Source: Pectinatus haikarae
GTDB taxonomy: Bacteria; Bacillota; Negativicutes; Selenomonadales; Selenomonadaceae
Direction: 5' to 3'
Length of the DNA: 64,000 nt
Assembly (NCBI RefSeq): GCF_015732185.1
Contig: NZ_WIQM01000016.1
Coordinates: 1-64,000 of the forward strand
The notes beneath the pieces were generated by a model, which saw only the letters and a list, made by a program, of their open reading frames with translations, had not been told where the DNA came from and ran no database searches. The translations under genes were made by a program, and so were the position numbers. Shown here piece after piece: positions 33,543 to 39,934 of this stretch. Within the stretch, counting starts at the first letter, position 1, and each line of letters starts with the position of its first letter.

Positions 33543-34727
33543 TCAAAGATCTGCAATTGCTTCAATGCCAGGCATAGGTTTTCCTTCGAGGAATTCTAAT
33601 GTAGCGCCGCCGCCTGTCGAAATATGGCTGATCTTATCAGAAAGACCTGTTTTTTTCAACGCAGCAATAGAATCACCACCGCCGACAATACTCACGGCAC
33701 CGGATTCTGCGACTGCCTTAGCAACAGCTTCTGTTCCTTTAGCAAAGGCATCAAATTCAAATACACCCATCGGCCCGTTCCAAACAACAGTTTTTGCATC
33801 TTTTAAAACCGCAGCATTCATTTTACAGCTTTCAGGACCGCAATCCAGTCCCATCCATTCAGGATCTATTTTGTCGACAGGCACAATTTTAGTGGCAGCA
33901 TCCGCAGCAAATTTATCAGCAATTACCACATCTGCAGGCAATAATACTTTTACACCTTTTGAAGCTGCTTTTGCCAAAAGATTTTTTGCAAGATCAATTT
34001 TGTCTTCTTCGCAGATGGATTTGCCGATATTATATCCTTGTGATGCAAGAAAAGTGTAAGCCATACCGCCGCCGATAATAATTGTATCGACTTTTTCTAT
34101 CATATTAGAAATAACACCTATTTTATCAGAAACTTTTGCACCACCAATAATGGCTACAAAAGGTTTTTTAGGCGCAGCAAGTGCCTGCCCAATAAATTTT
34201 ATTTCTTTTTCTACAAGAAAACCGCTGACGACTTCAACATATTGGGCAATACCAACATTGGATGCATGTGCCCGGTGAGAAACGCCAAAGGCATCATCAA
34301 CTGCCACATCAGCCAGGGATGCCAGCTGTTTTGCAAATTTCGGATCATTTTTTGTTTCTTCATTATGGTAGCGAAGGTTTTCCAATAAAAGGACCTCGCC
34401 GGGTTTTAATGAAGCTGCCGCTTCTTCTGCCGGTTTGCCAACGCAATCTTCAGCGTATTTTACTTCTTTTCCCAAAAGCTCAGAAAGTCTCTTCACTATA
34501 GGTTTAACAGAAAGTTCAGGAACGCGCTGACCTTTAGGACGACCAACATGGCATGCCAAAATAAGGGCAGCATTTTTTTCCAGCAGATAATTGAGCGTAG
34601 GAAGTGTGGCTCTTATTCTTTTATCATTGGTGATATTTTGATTTTCATCCATAGGAACATTGAAATCCACACGGATAAATACTTTTTTGCCGTTTACATC
34701 AATATCTCTGATTGTCTTTTTATTCAT
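33543..34727 (-). CDS. pgk: Phosphoglycerate kinase
   Basis: This 394-residue protein has the family length. Motifs are VFIRVDFNVPMDENQ, LACHVGRPKGQR, LLLENLRYHNEETKN, DDAFGVSHRAHAS, IIGGAKVSDKI, VVWNGPMGVFEFDAF and GGGDSIAAL. It makes ATP and 3-phosphoglycerate. It has a GGAGG site 8 bases before the ATG and follows gapA by 75 bases, which include a strong hairpin. Confidence 0.98.
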   Translation of the reverse strand: MNKKTIRDIDVNGKKVFIRVDFNVPMDENQNITNDKRIRATLPTLNYLLEKNAALILACHVGRPKGQRVPELSVKPIVKRLSELLGKEVKYAEDCVGKPAEEAAASLKPGEVLLLENLRYHNEETKNDPKFAKQLASLADVAVDDAFGVSHRAHASNVGIAQYVEVVSGFLVEKEIKFIGQALAAPKKPFVAIIGGAKVSDKIGVISNMIEKVDTIIIGGGMAYTFLASQGYNIGKSICEEDKIDLAKNLLAKAASKGVKVLLPADVVIADKFAADAATKIVPVDKIDPEWMGLDCGPESCKMNAAVLKDAKTVVWNGPMGVFEFDAFAKGTEAVAKAVAESGAVSIVGGGDSIAALKKTGLSDKISHISTGGGATLEFLEGKPMPGIEAIADL

Positions 34728-34802: not shown

Positions 34803-35816
34803 TTACTTCAGTTCAGCAAAGTATTTGATTGTACGAACCATCTGACTTGTGAAACTGTTTTCATTATCATACCATGAAACGACCTGCACCTGTGTATTGC
34901 CGTCTTCCATAGGAGCAACCATTGTCTGTGTAGAATCGAATAATGAACCGAATCTCATGCCGATAACATCGCTTGATACGATTTGATCTTCAGTGTAACC
35001 GAAAGATTCAGTTTCAGCAGCTTTCATAGCCTTATTGATGTCTTCAACAGATACTTTGCCTTTTACAACAGCTACCAAAATAGTTGTCGAGCCGGTAGGA
35101 GTAGGAACACGCTGTGCCGAACCGATCAATTTGCCGTTCAATTCAGGAATGACAAGACCAATAGCTTTTGCGGCACCGGTGCTGTTAGGTACAATATTAA
35201 TAGCAGCAGCACGCGAACGGCGGAGATCGCCCTTACGCTGAGGACCATCCAAAATCATCTGGTCGCCAGTATAAGCATGAACTGTCGTCATAATACCGCT
35301 CTGGATAGGAGCCAATTTGTTCAATGCATCAGCCATAGGGGCCAAGCAGTTTGTGGTGCAGGAAGCTGCGGAAATAACAGTGTCACTTGATTTTAAAGCC
35401 TTATGGTTTACGTTGTAAACGATGGTAGGAAGATCACTGCCAGCCGGAGCAGAAATAACAACTTTCTTAGCGCCTGCTTTAATATGTGCTGCAGCCTTGT
35501 CTTTCGAAGCGAAAAAGCCTGTACATTCAAGCACTATATCAACATCAAGATCTCCCCAAGGCAATTCTTCAGGATTAGGTTTTTTGTAAATAGTGATTTT
35601 CTTACCATTTACAGTAATGGAATCTTCGCCAGCTTCTACAGAATCAGCATATTTATATCTGCCCTGTGTAGAATCGTACTTCAAAAGATGTGCAAGCATT
35701 TTAGGACTTGTCAAATCGTTAAGTGCAACAACATCATATCCTTCTGCGTCGAACATCTGTCTGAAAGCGAGACGGCCAATACGACCAAACCCATTAATAG
35801 CAACTTTAACTGCCAT
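34803..35816 (-). CDS. gapA: Glyceraldehyde-3-phosphate dehydrogenase
   Basis: This 337-residue protein has NAD-binding [13 protein letters not shown], catalytic Cys in [49 protein letters not shown] and [16 protein letters not shown]. Asp-type residues after the Rossmann beta-2 strand (ALNDLTSP) fit NAD rather than NADP use. It is the first gene of the gapA-pgk-tpiA-gpmI cluster, behind a roughly 150-base structured leader. Confidence 0.98.
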
Positions 35817-35840
35817 TGTAAAAATACCCCCTAAAATTTT

Positions 35841-35920
35841 AAAAAAAGTTTTCTGGAATTTTCCAGAATATGTTGGCTGAATAACCCCGCTGCTAAAAGA
35901 CGATCAGCAGCCTTATCCAG
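35841..35920 (-). promoter_or_regulatory. Structured gapA leader (two hairpins)
   Basis: The first hairpin in the RNA pairs 35920-35906 with 35894-35877, with GCTGCT/AGCAGC as its core. The second is TTCTGGAA/TTCCAGAA (35868-35851), followed by AACTTTTTTT, which looks like a weak terminator. They occupy the space between promoter and ribosome site. Alternative folding for attenuation is possible but not shown. Confidence 0.45.
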
Positions 35921-35972
35921 ACAAACGACAAATACCAAACTGCCAGAAACTCCAACAGTTTTATCACCATTT

Positions 35973-36002
35973 ATGATACAATAAAAACCCATTATTTGTC
36001 AA
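35973..36002 (-). promoter_or_regulatory. Sigma-A promoter of the gapA operon
   Basis: On the minus strand TTGACA (36002-35997), 18-base spacer, TATCAT (35978-35973), about 155 bases upstream of gapA. Confidence 0.7.
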
Positions 36003-36135
36003 CGTTTTTACTTGTAAATAGAGCAGTTCGAACCGATCGAAAATTGTGAATAAGCGTTATTATCTGTCATGTAGTTTAGCCGCTGCCCGCCTACAAAATT
36101 CTCTTTATGCAGATGCAGCCGCGTATTGCAGAATT

Positions 36136-36176
36136 TAATAAAAATAAAATCAGCAAATTTCATCCGAAATTTGCTG
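36136..36176 (-). terminator. Terminator after the SCIFF maturase gene
   Basis: A perfect 12-base stem (36149-36160 with 36165-36176, 4-base loop) is followed on the minus strand by TTTTATTTTTATT. The interval 36003-36285 holds only this and the gapA promoter region; no gene is supported. Confidence 0.85.
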
Positions 36177-36285
36177 ATCAATACTCCGTAAGTCAATTTC
36201 TTATTCTTCACCATTAAAATAGTTGTGTGGCAAATTATACAGAAAAATTAAACAAAATCAACTGCAAATTTTATTCAAGTACAGA

Positions 36286-37647
36286 TTAATGACTGTTTTC
36301 CATAGACATTAATGCCTGAACAGCAATCGCACATTCCAATCTTTTCTTCTGCAGTTCGCATCCCAGTTCATAGGGTTTATATATATCATTGTTGAAAAGA
36401 TCGGCGTTGGCATGACAGCCGCCGCTGCAGAAATATCTTGCCCAGCAGTCACGGCACTTATCTTTATTCAGAACATGGCAATTTCTGAAATGCTGTGGGA
36501 TTTGTGTGCTGGTGACGCCCTCGAATACATTACCGAGCAAATATTTTTCGCGTCCGACAAATTGATGGCAGGGGTACATATCGCCATTTGCCGCCACAGC
36601 ATAATATTCATGCCCGGCGCCACAGCCGCTTAGCCTTTTTGCTACACAGGGACCATTATTAAGGTCTATATTGAAATGAAAAAAGAAAAATCCTCTGCCC
36701 TCGCGGCGATACTGCAGATATGTATTTACCAGCTTATCATACTCTGCAAATATTTGCGGCAGGTCGCTTTCAAGTATTGCGTAATCTTCATCCTTGGCAA
36801 TAACGGGCTCAATAGACAGGATGTCAAAACCCTCATCGGCCATTGAAACCACATCGTTGGTAAAATCAAGATTATATTTGGTATAAGTACCTCGCATGTA
36901 ATAATTTTCATCGTTTCTTGATTTGACTAGCTTTTTAAAATTAGCCACTGCCCTGTTATAAGTATCATGTCCGCCGGCATCCGGGCGCATATGATCATGT
37001 ACACTTTTTCTTCCGTCCAGACTTATGACTACGCTTATATTATTGTCATTCAGAAATTTTATATTCTCGTCATTCAACAGTATGCCATTTGTCGTCAAAG
37101 TCAGCTTGAATATTTTGCCTGCCTCTTTTTCTCTTTTTCTTACATATGCTGTTATATGTTTCACCAAAGGCATGTTTACCAGCGGTTCTCCGCCAAAAAA
37201 ATCTATTTCACAGTGTTTTCTGCTGCCGCTATGCTCTATTATATATTCAACTGCCGCTTCGCCTACCTGTCTATTCATAAGCTGCCTGTCAGCACCAAAG
37301 TCTCCTGTATCGGCAAAGCAATACTTACAGCGCAGATTACAATCATGCGCTACTAAAAGACACATTGATTTAACAATGCCCTTTTCAGAGAATACTGGCG
37401 GCACGGTAATATCCGGCGCAAATAATTGTTCGGCTTCTATTAGCTGATGCAGTTCTGACAATGCCTCTTTTATTTCCAAGGGTTTGTAAATATTCATATA
37501 TTTATTTATTACGTCATCATCATTTTTGCCGTCAAACACATCCATCATATCGGCGATCATTTTATCAACAGCGTGGACAGCTCCGCTGTTCACATCAAGC
37601 AGAAAATATACATCTTTATAGTGAAACTTGTGGATATTTTTATTCAT
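36286..37647 (-). CDS. scfB: Radical SAM/SPASM thioether maturase of the SCIFF peptide
   Basis: This 453-residue enzyme has an N-terminal peptide-recognition (RRE-like) part (about 1-95), a radical SAM core with the Cys triad CNLRCKYC and FFGGEP, and a C-terminal SPASM domain with many Cys (CGAGHEYYAVAANGDMYPCH, CHVLNKDKCRDCWARYFC, GGCH). This matches the SCIFF maturases (CteB/ScfB) that form Cys-to-alpha-carbon thioether links. The substrate gene is immediately upstream, separated by a partial terminator. Confidence 0.94.
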   Translation of the reverse strand: MNKNIHKFHYKDVYFLLDVNSGAVHAVDKMIADMMDVFDGKNDDDVINKYMNIYKPLEIKEALSELHQLIEAEQLFAPDITVPPVFSEKGIVKSMCLLVAHDCNLRCKYCFADTGDFGADRQLMNRQVGEAAVEYIIEHSGSRKHCEIDFFGGEPLVNMPLVKHITAYVRKREKEAGKIFKLTLTTNGILLNDENIKFLNDNNISVVISLDGRKSVHDHMRPDAGGHDTYNRAVANFKKLVKSRNDENYYMRGTYTKYNLDFTNDVVSMADEGFDILSIEPVIAKDEDYAILESDLPQIFAEYDKLVNTYLQYRREGRGFFFFHFNIDLNNGPCVAKRLSGCGAGHEYYAVAANGDMYPCHQFVGREKYLLGNVFEGVTSTQIPQHFRNCHVLNKDKCRDCWARYFCSGGCHANADLFNNDIYKPYELGCELQKKRLECAIAVQALMSMENSH

Positions 37648-37669
37648 TGACAGATAAATCCTTTCTTAC

Positions 37670-37700
37670 ATTAAAAAAAGGCTGCATACACAGCCTTTTT
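37670..37700 (-). terminator. Partial terminator between the SCIFF peptide and its maturase
   Basis: On the minus strand an AAAGGCTG/CAGCCTTT stem with a 6-base loop is followed by TTTTTTT. It would give more peptide than enzyme transcript. Confidence 0.85.
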
Positions 37701-37715
37701 TAGACTAAATGAAAA

Positions 37716-37859
37716 TTATTGCTTTTTTTCGCAAACTTGATTGCCTACCGTGCAGGACGTCTTGCACGCAGACTGACATGAAGCCTGGCATTCACCGCAG
37801 CCGCCTGTTTTTAAGGTGCTTTGCAGATATGGTTTATTGACTGTCTTAATATGTTTCAT
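37716..37859 (-). CDS. scfA: SCIFF ribosomal peptide precursor (six Cys in about 45 residues)
   Basis: This 47-residue gene is easily missed because of its size. It has ATG 37859 with AAGGAGG 8 bases upstream and a TAA at 37718-37716. The N-terminal leader begins MKHIKTVNKPYLQSTLKTGG. The core contains exactly six Cys in the family spacing (GCGECQASCQSACKTSC, then VC). This matches the SCIFF family, whose core is converted to a thioether-bridged peptide by the adjacent radical SAM enzyme. The biological role of SCIFF products remains unknown. It is transcribed from its own promoter. Confidence 0.95.
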   Translation of the reverse strand: MKHIKTVNKPYLQSTLKTGGCGECQASCQSACKTSCTVGNQVCEKKQ

Positions 37860-37901
37860 GAAAAAGCCTCCTTATTATATCAATAATCAATAACATTATA
37901 T

Positions 37902-37930
37902 ATTGTATAATTTTTTTACCTTTCAATCAA
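37902..37930 (-). promoter_or_regulatory. Sigma-A promoter of the SCIFF operon
   Basis: On the minus strand TTGATT (37930-37925), 17-base spacer, TACAAT (37907-37902), about 40 bases before the peptide start. No clear terminator separates it from the gene upstream, so read-through from that operon is possible. Confidence 0.65.
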
Positions 37931-37950
37931 TATCTACGCTGAAAATATAT

Positions 37951-39129
37951 TTATTCCTCGGGCGCCAATATAATATTGACGGGCAAATTGGATGCTCCGG
38001 GAGGTGAATATTGAAACAGGACATTATCTCTTATCTTATATATTCCTAAATCAGCATAATATGCCTGACGCTGGTTTTCACCAAAAAATGCACGTTCTGA
38101 AGGAGTCGGCAGCACATTGACACTTACATTGTTATTTATTTGCGCCGTCATAGCCCCGGCATAAACACCGCCCAGCGGTTGAAGATAATAATGGACTTTG
38201 CCCATTCCTCCTGTCGGCATATTCAAATAATAAAGCACTCCATAATTGCCATAATTTTTGACCGTACTGCCATCCGTTGCATCAATGCCTGTCAGATATG
38301 CATCGTCCTTGTCATCGGCAACAGTGAAATATACGGCACCATCTTTTTCAGGATTGTATCTTCGTTCTCCCTGCAGGACACGATCCATATTTTGAAAAGT
38401 ACCGCGCAGCCTGCTCTCATCTTTGAGCAAAACCGGTGCCGTTTTTATAAAAGCATAGGGATCGGCATCCATCGGCAGCATCATCACCGTTATCTTGACA
38501 GGAGCTGCTGTCTCGAAATCATATATGCCGCAAACCAATTCGTCCTTTTTAATTACCATGCGATTTGTTCTGTTTTCTAATATTTGAGAGCTTTTTTTAT
38601 CAATAAGGACATCTCGCGATGTCTGGTATCCGAAATACCGCAGCTGTGAAGTTTTTCCCACATATAAATAATCTGCGCTCGGTCCTGCCTGAGCAGAGCG
38701 TGTAATATGAAAATCCGCAGCATTTGTTCTACTTTCATTTGTCAGCATAACAACTACTTTTTTATCTTCATCGGTACCATTTACATGATAATAATACAAC
38801 CGACCTTTTCCGCTGACAGTATCTTCATACAGTATACCATCCTGATATACTGTCTCCGGACTGTCAGAAAAAATAAGCGTTCCTTCTTTATCAATACGCT
38901 TCACAGGCCAGGCCGTCATTTTATCTATTTGCGATTTAAAACTTGCCGCGGAATATTTTGCCTTTTCATCTGATGTTTGTGAGTTTGCTTTTATGGAATA
39001 TTCCCTTGTTTTTTCTACCGTATTCTTTGCATCTTCTTTGTGGCGGGCCTGAACTGTACCGCAGAAAAGAACACTGCCAACTGCAATGGCTGCAAAAGTC
39101 GATAATATTATTTGTTTAAAAAAATCCAT
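37951..39129 (-). CDS. Exported protein of unknown function
   Basis: This 392-residue protein has an N-terminal signal peptide (about 1-28, ending near VQARH), then a Lys/Glu/Ser-rich region and a mainly beta-type body with many short hydrophobic strands. Recognisable pieces include KVVVMLTNESRTNAADFHIT and YNYGVLYY-like NYGNYGVLYYLNMP, but I do not recognise the family. The gene starts 16 bases after the deacetylase and ends the whiA-linked gene set. Secretion to the periplasm or outer face and a link to envelope polysaccharide are inferred from context only. Confidence 0.75.
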   Translation of the reverse strand: MDFFKQIILSTFAAIAVGSVLFCGTVQARHKEDAKNTVEKTREYSIKANSQTSDEKAKYSAASFKSQIDKMTAWPVKRIDKEGTLIFSDSPETVYQDGILYEDTVSGKGRLYYYHVNGTDEDKKVVVMLTNESRTNAADFHITRSAQAGPSADYLYVGKTSQLRYFGYQTSRDVLIDKKSSQILENRTNRMVIKKDELVCGIYDFETAAPVKITVMMLPMDADPYAFIKTAPVLLKDESRLRGTFQNMDRVLQGERRYNPEKDGAVYFTVADDKDDAYLTGIDATDGSTVKNYGNYGVLYYLNMPTGGMGKVHYYLQPLGGVYAGAMTAQINNNVSVNVLPTPSERAFFGENQRQAYYADLGIYKIRDNVLFQYSPPGASNLPVNIILAPEE

Positions 39130-39145
39130 TTTTCCTCATAAATTT

Positions 39146-39934
39146 CTATATTTTATTTTGTTTTATATTAAATTCAGTATAAAGTTTGCTTTTCAATATC
39201 CTTAACTTGAAATCCAGCATGCCCAGTTTTGATCTCGGAATATATGTCCTTTGCAGCCGATAAGCATCCGTAGCAAAAGTATTGATTCCCGGATCGCCTG
39301 TAACAGCGCCCAGATAACCGTCTGCACGGAGATCTGTCTGTGCCGTGTCATTATAGCTTCCATTCGGATAAGAGAAAAAATATATTGTTTTCAAACCTTT
39401 CCATTCCATTAACAATTTTGAGAGATGAATTTCATCATTTATTTTTTCCGGCTCAAGTGATGCTAATGGTATATGATTAGCGGTATGGCTGCCTATCTCC
39501 ATATTTACCAGCTGCATTTCTCTCAGCTGATCCCAAGTAAGATAACCTTCCAGCCCTATGCTGTTTGTTATAATAAAAACAGTCCCTGTCATATTATTTT
39601 CAGCTAAAATAGGCATAACTTCAGTATAATTATCCTCGTAACCGTCATCAAAGGTTAAAATCACTGACTTATCCGGCAATTTATCACCATATTTCTTAGC
39701 TCTTATAAAATTCATAAGACTGATTGTCGAATATCCCTGCTCAGACAGATATTCAATTTGTTTTCTGAATTCTTCCGTGGATATTGTATATTCATCATCA
39801 TCAACATCATTTACTCTATGATATTCCAGAATGAGGATATTATTTTTATCCTCACCGGAAAAATATATGGCAACCACTCCAAATACAAGCAAAAAAACCA
39901 GCCCGGCAATTATAAACCAACGTAGTGACTTCAT
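39146..39934 (-). CDS. Membrane-anchored polysaccharide deacetylase (NodB-type)
   Basis: This 262-residue protein has one N-terminal membrane anchor (about 5-25) and a NodB homology domain with ILEYHRVND, metal-binding VILTFDDGYEDNY (catalytic base and metal Asp), SHTANHIPL (His-X3-His) and FFSYPNGSYND. It probably removes acetyl groups from peptidoglycan or another surface polysaccharide. It overlaps the whiA stop by 4 bases. Confidence 0.9.
   Translation of the reverse strand: MKSLRWFIIAGLVFLLVFGVVAIYFSGEDKNNILILEYHRVNDVDDDEYTISTEEFRKQIEYLSEQGYSTISLMNFIRAKKYGDKLPDKSVILTFDDGYEDNYTEVMPILAENNMTGTVFIITNSIGLEGYLTWDQLREMQLVNMEIGSHTANHIPLASLEPEKINDEIHLSKLLMEWKGLKTIYFFSYPNGSYNDTAQTDLRADGYLGAVTGDPGINTFATDAYRLQRTYIPRSKLGMLDFKLRILKSKLYTEFNIKQNKI

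Follow-up and report, generated by a model that had tools for sequence, protein, structure and literature searches.

The window, by which we mean the whole 64,000-nucleotide stretch of DNA that was analysed, belongs to a member of the class Negativicutes; among named relatives, Pectinatus cerevisiiphilus (88%) and P. frisingensis (82%) come closest to it. On its minus strand a small gene for a SCIFF precursor peptide is followed by the gene of a radical SAM/SPASM maturase, with a hairpin between them (Table 1). An earlier note had proposed a 47-codon SCIFF peptide gene at this place, and the proposal holds with the correction that the gene is read from the minus strand, where the 144 bases form an open frame of 47 residues; on the plus strand stops interrupt the frame.

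Table 1. Features at and around the SCIFF locus, in positions of the window.
Feature	Position	Strand	Basis or remark
Terminator-like hairpin after maturase	36148-36179	-	Terminator scan; suggested role in the text
SCIFF maturase, radical SAM/SPASM, 453 aa	36286-37647	-	TIGR03974; PDB 5wgg/5why; CX3CX2C at C103-C107-C110
Terminator-like hairpin, 12 pairs (4 G-C), 4-base loop, T tract	37674-37701	-	Between peptide and maturase
SCIFF precursor peptide gene	37716-37859	-	47 aa; leader 1-20, six-Cys core 21-43; TIGR03973 and PF13165
Ribosome binding site AAGGAGG	37867-37873	-	7 nt before ATG; sequence and Pectinatus alignment
Sigma-70-type promoter TTGATT-17 nt-TACAAT	37902-37930	-	Consensus scan 9 of 12, before peptide gene
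392-aa secreted protein	37951-39129	-	No Pfam or NCBIfam match above cut-off
Polysaccharide deacetylase (PF01522), PgaB-like part	39146-39934	-	Near whiA in many Negativicute loci

The profile search that the earlier note had asked for placed the peptide far above both curated cut-offs, with 88.1 bits against TIGR03973 (E 2.6e-25; cut-off 50) and 88.6 bits against PF13165 (cut-off 27). The six cysteines stand at residues 21, 24, 28, 32, 36 and 43 of the translation, inside about 45 residues and in the family spacing that had been claimed for them, and a radical SAM maturase adjoins on the same strand, with 68 nt from the peptide stop to the maturase ATG. The family score and the conservation together show the peptide frame to be real. 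The leader aligned weakly with the CteA leader (PDB 5wgg chain B; E 0.058), and an unrelated reductase likewise gave E 0.052.

The identity of the maturase had been made to depend on a match to the SCIFF maturase model, and the gene scored 597.9 bits against TIGR03974 (cut-off 425). Residues 5-445 were aligned with the solved CteB (PDB 5wgg, 5why) at E 3.4e-154, and the CX3CX2C motif and the cysteines of the SPASM region line up with those of CteB in an alignment judged by eye, for which we presumed the SPASM cysteine pattern. The 24 other models among the matches listed (25 of 74), which are sister families, all stayed below their own cut-offs. By these scores the locus is a genuine and correctly recognised SCIFF locus, an ordinary and well-confirmed member of the family. 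What the analysis adds is the near class-wide presence of the system, the recurring hairpin, the separation of the two genes in one genus and the presence of SCIFF where Spo0A was not found.

The expression signals bear out the strong ribosome site claimed for the peptide gene, which is kept, with small changes in L025, in the five Pectinatus sequences that were aligned. The claim of an own promoter found support too: the end of the promoter-like site lies 42 nt from the peptide start codon and its TTG and AAAAAATTATACAAT parts are common to the same five sequences, while with 25 promoter-like sites in the scan against 12.4 expected in shuffles the promoter call is weak taken alone. The intergenic hairpin, which was found by custom hairpin scripts and is absent from the listing of the built-in terminator scan, begins 14 nt past the peptide stop and ends 26 nt ahead of the maturase ATG. 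The hairpin after the maturase is the probable end of the transcription unit. A known RNA element at the locus was rejected, as no Rfam family matched at gathering scores in 35700-39300.

The intergenic hairpin had been interpreted as a partial terminator giving an excess of peptide over enzyme. Its recurrence favours this interpretation, though some relatives are without it. The criterion asked for an uninterrupted stem of 8 or more pairs (counting G-T), 4 G-C pairs among them, and a T tract. Of 40 distinct intergenics from Negativicutes, most of them Selenomonadaceae and Acidaminococcaceae, 39 had such a hairpin, against 0.32 expected from dinucleotide shuffles; this set excludes nine loci with no maturase in reach, L001 and L024 as duplicates, a further identical sequence and the intergenic of L040, which is 1420 nt long. 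Among wider Negativicute representatives the hairpin was present in 24 and missing by the same criterion in 10 of 34 (of 40 fetched, three lacked a recognised core and three belonged to the family of the window, and these were set aside), and in other Firmicutes it was present in 31 of 53 intergenics, against 0.23 expected, and missing in 22. Since the stem sequences vary between genera, it is evidently the arrangement of the hairpin that is kept and not its sequence. Control gene pairs, scored only at gaps of 40-400 nt (93 further pairs fell outside this range), gave few hairpins for yvcK-whiA (0/9), rapZ-yvcK (0/4), pgk-tpi (1/7) and tpi-gpmI (1/5). Terminators inside gene clusters are not peculiar to the SCIFF-maturase pair, because the gap-pgk pair has hairpins in 12 of 16 scored loci. 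The gap-pgk intergenics, between homologues of 34803-35816 and 33543-34727 of the window, are a possible second attenuated gene pair.

We read the locus as an operon of two genes for a ranthipeptide (SCIFF) in a Pectinatus-like Negativicute and, going by its sequence, put the probability of this explanation as a whole at about 0.88. One promoter would drive the small precursor, most transcripts would probably stop at the hairpin just past the peptide gene and the remainder would read through into the maturase, whereby the peptide would come to exceed the enzyme. For the window, read-through with the peptide in excess appears to be the simplest reading, and the recurring hairpin turns it into a testable prediction on the peptide-to-enzyme ratio. 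The maturase would then bind the leader and set a non-alpha thioether between Cys32 and Thr34 or Thr37, a linkage that we infer from CteA/CteB and Tte1186, both threonines being present here. The matured peptide would probably be processed by genes elsewhere and may serve in an ancient, general role, for which signalling seems likelier than antibiosis; this is the least certain step, and signalling as the role, drawn from work in C. beijerinckii and C. ljungdahlii, is a tentative assignment.

The hairpin could also be a full terminator, with a maturase promoter inside the peptide gene or the hairpin, so that the peptide and the maturase would be separate transcription units. A case for this comes from one genus of the same family as the window (g11), in which SCIFF was found above cut-off in 22 of 24 genomes, the maturase in 20 and both in 19; the genomes are mostly drafts, which bears on the cases with SCIFF only. 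Among the 19 genomes with both, the genes stand on different contigs in 15, about 76 kb apart in one, reversed and 3 kb apart in one, about 1.7 kb apart in one and adjacent in one, and each gene can accordingly be transcribed on its own there. A promoter would also have room in 13 of 39 intergenics, the hairpin there ending at least 60 nt short of the maturase. This distance is below 40 nt in 15 of the 39, therefore with little room for a promoter between, and only 26 nt in the window itself, where the promoter scan placed no promoter-like site on the minus strand of either the peptide gene or the intergenic. Moreover, outside g11 the two genes adjoin in the named and representative loci where both could be recognised, L040 excepted. 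We consider separate transcription units improbable for the window and retain the operon with read-through.

The neighbours of the lone SCIFF gene differ among many g11 species (loci L002, L004, L012, L016, L017, L019, L026, L028, L030, L111-L139 and L141-L144), and in the loci that were read its core peptide does not depart from the usual. Within g11, SCIFF was present and the maturase not detected in G167, G256 and G264. SCIFF and maturase are likewise on separate contigs in G299, of another genus. Species in which the pair is split or one of the genes is absent could serve as natural experiments.

The earlier note was right that a Negativicute has the system, but the system is not confined to a single member of the class. 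Among 300 class genomes drawn evenly, SCIFF was found in 279 at E up to 0.001 (221 of the 227 of good quality, 93 of 97 genera), and 278 had a maturase match at E up to 1e-80 (218 of the 227). Both genes were found in 275 genomes, SCIFF only in four (G021, G167, G256 and G264, one of them rated 99% complete), the maturase only in three (G243, G249 and G297) and neither in 18, where the assignments of G250 as lacking SCIFF and of G246 and G250 as lacking the maturase were deduced, the listings being one and two rows short; G193, a single contig rated 99% complete, has neither gene. A single SCIFF match per genome was the case in 276 of the 279 bearers, with two matches in G006, G085 and G208. 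Two maturase matches were seen in G026, G040, G046 and G127, and fragmented genomes such as G026 may show pieces of one gene. A draw from the whole phylum gave SCIFF in 244 of 299 genomes, namely in all 11 class members included and in 233 of the 288 outside the class.

SCIFF systems are widespread in Clostridia and, by the present counts, in Negativicutes. The Negativicutes were once classed within the Clostridia, and 'Clostridia' in the original SCIFF work (Haft and Basu 2011) may include them. The accessible part of a later paper describes the two-gene SCIFF cluster as nearly ubiquitous in clostridial genomes (PMC11063209), and SCIFF motifs were reported in 24 pig isolates in a paper whose accessible part also describes Anaerovibrio slackiae of the Selenomonadaceae (PMC7738495). 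Our searches of the open-access literature found no paper pairing SCIFF with Negativicutes, ranthipeptide with Negativicutes or SCIFF with terminator, and SCIFF was not mentioned among the matches listed there for Veillonella, Megasphaera, Selenomonas and Pectinatus.

The assignment of the host to the diderm Negativicutes, on which the earlier note had relied, is supported by LpxC in the window's own genome (G000; E 1.1e-90) and by the nearest loci being those of Pectinatus, but the Pfam model of LptD (PF04453) gave no match there by profile search. The LPS exporter of this genome may be divergent or missed. Independence of the system from a monoderm envelope may fairly be supposed, with LpxC in this one genome standing for the class.

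The unrooted maturase tree, calculated with 56 of 63 Negativicute rows and 28 of 56 others, places the 56 Negativicute sequences on one side of a branch and the 28 others on the other side (SH-aLRT 100). The gene whiA was found in the fetched stretch of 18 of 22 named and 26 of 40 representative Negativicute loci and in none of the 57 loci from other Firmicutes, counts that are lower bounds, many of the fetched stretches being short. The Negativicute pair often comes after rapZ-yvcK-whiA, where the 392-aa protein and the polysaccharide deacetylase may or may not be present, and some loci have gap-pgk-tpi-gpmI behind the pair. Because the maturases form one branch and the pair is often beside whiA, it looks inherited, which suggests that it was present in the common ancestor of the Negativicutes. 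Recent horizontal acquisition is disfavoured by the same one-branch placement and synteny; transfer out of the Negativicutes may have taken place and would be compatible with the unrooted tree.

The 392-aa secreted protein was found in 264 of the 300 class genomes, often directly before SCIFF, and of the 33 loci where the two genes were seen together (62 Negativicute loci were searched), 27 have them within about 204 nt of each other, a closeness that at first hinted at a functional connection. It occurs in 250 of the 279 class genomes with SCIFF against 14 of the 21 without (G250 counted among the latter by deduction), and in 31 of the 288 phylum genomes outside the class. As a required partner of SCIFF it was rejected on account of these SCIFF-less and outside carriers. 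No usable fold came from its predicted structure (mean pLDDT 74.7), for which every one of the 50 listed PDB matches had a TM-score below 0.3, and two of the five homologues scanned against Pfam had sub-threshold similarity to DUF3370.

A comparison of the peptide across Negativicutes, which had been proposed as a check, revealed a near-invariant core. The core pattern was found in 102 of 105 Negativicute loci, some genomes being counted twice (misses in L149, L176 and L186), and the 92 distinct core DNAs encode only 10 peptides (pS 0.77, pN 0.038). The other cores, from 55 of 57 loci, comprise 54 DNAs and 10 peptides (pS 0.77, pN 0.052). The pattern itself required C21, G22, E23, C24, S/A27, C28, C32 and C36, so that invariance at these positions is built in. 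Outside this requirement, Thr34, Thr37, Asn40 and Cys43 are invariant in the 102 Negativicute and the 55 other loci, that is, in all 157.

The function of SCIFF had been called unknown, which is partly outdated, since the accessible parts of two reviews (PMC8326336, PMC8102284) describe a quorum-sensing role in C. beijerinckii and C. ljungdahlii. Profile searches matched Spo0A_C in 56 of the 300 class genomes, and SCIFF is present in 54 of these 56 and in 225 of the 244 others. In the window's genus, all five genomes (its own and four others) have SCIFF and lack a Spo0A match. Sporulation is unlikely to be what keeps SCIFF in Negativicutes, because SCIFF is found in those 225 genomes. The counts suggest that SCIFF is old and nearly universal in the class, also in species without a detectable sporulation regulator. 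That it is retained across a class mostly without a Spo0A match leaves fewer roles to consider and provides organisms in which to test them.

SCIFF might be an ancient, near-essential housekeeping peptide of anaerobic Firmicutes and no specialised secreted metabolite, a doubtful proposal that draws on the core being unchanged whether or not Spo0A is there, whether the lineage is monoderm or diderm, and even with peptide and enzyme genes separated. If it were true, the peptide would be held in large excess over the enzyme by the recurring terminator, which would fit an abundant component of the cell, such as a metal, redox or envelope factor, and not a signal.

For clostridia SCIFF is reported as a sporulation or Agr-linked quorum-sensing signal, and that this should be its main role is still harder to accept here. 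In C. beijerinckii, sporulation genes went down and agr went up when SCIFF was disrupted (Chen et al. 2020, as described in the accessible parts of PMC8102284 and PMC8326336), and the transcriptome of this knockout (PMC8102284) is the argument in favour of such a role. The prevalence of SCIFF in class genomes without a Spo0A_C match, including the window's genome and four more of its genus, speaks against it as the sole role, and SCIFF was not seen to be lost along with sporulation. Nor could the link to sporulation be made in C. ljungdahlii, according to the accessible part of PMC8102284. AgrB matched in none of the 101 genomes of the family, but as the controls were likewise without match, this count is no sign that AgrB is absent. 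An antimicrobial, sactipeptide-like bacteriocin, for which the accessible part of PMC7738495 proposes antibacterial potential by analogy with sactipeptides, is the least credible of the roles considered, as it would fit poorly with an almost unvarying core and with one match per genome in nearly all bearers, and the breadth of occurrence is used as an argument against it in the accessible part of PMC8326336. A signal and a general cellular component thus remain, and we would slightly favour the signal.

Among known systems, the closest to the peptide are the SCIFF precursors of TIGR03973 and PF13165, including CteA of Clostridium thermocellum and Tte1186a of Caldanaerobacter, with which it shares length, leader, six-Cys spacing, Thr34 and Thr37 and an adjacent maturase. 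The maturase resembles CteB (PDB 5wgg, 5why; TIGR03974) over nearly its full length, in the CX3CX2C motif and in the cysteines of the SPASM region, but its host is a Negativicute with LpxC and its activity is a predicted one. It is of the same radical SAM/SPASM family as the PapB/freyrasin ranthipeptide maturases (NF047865), whose model it matches at 270.5 bits, under the cut-off of 340. With the ScfB-related orphan maturases (NF040492, the not_ScfB exception model) it shares a score of 543.8 bits, which is under the cut-off of 855, and unlike them it has a SCIFF partner. The core itself carries a difference from other SCIFF precursors: Negativicute cores mostly end in TVGNQVC, whereas most of the 55 other loci have TVANQKC.
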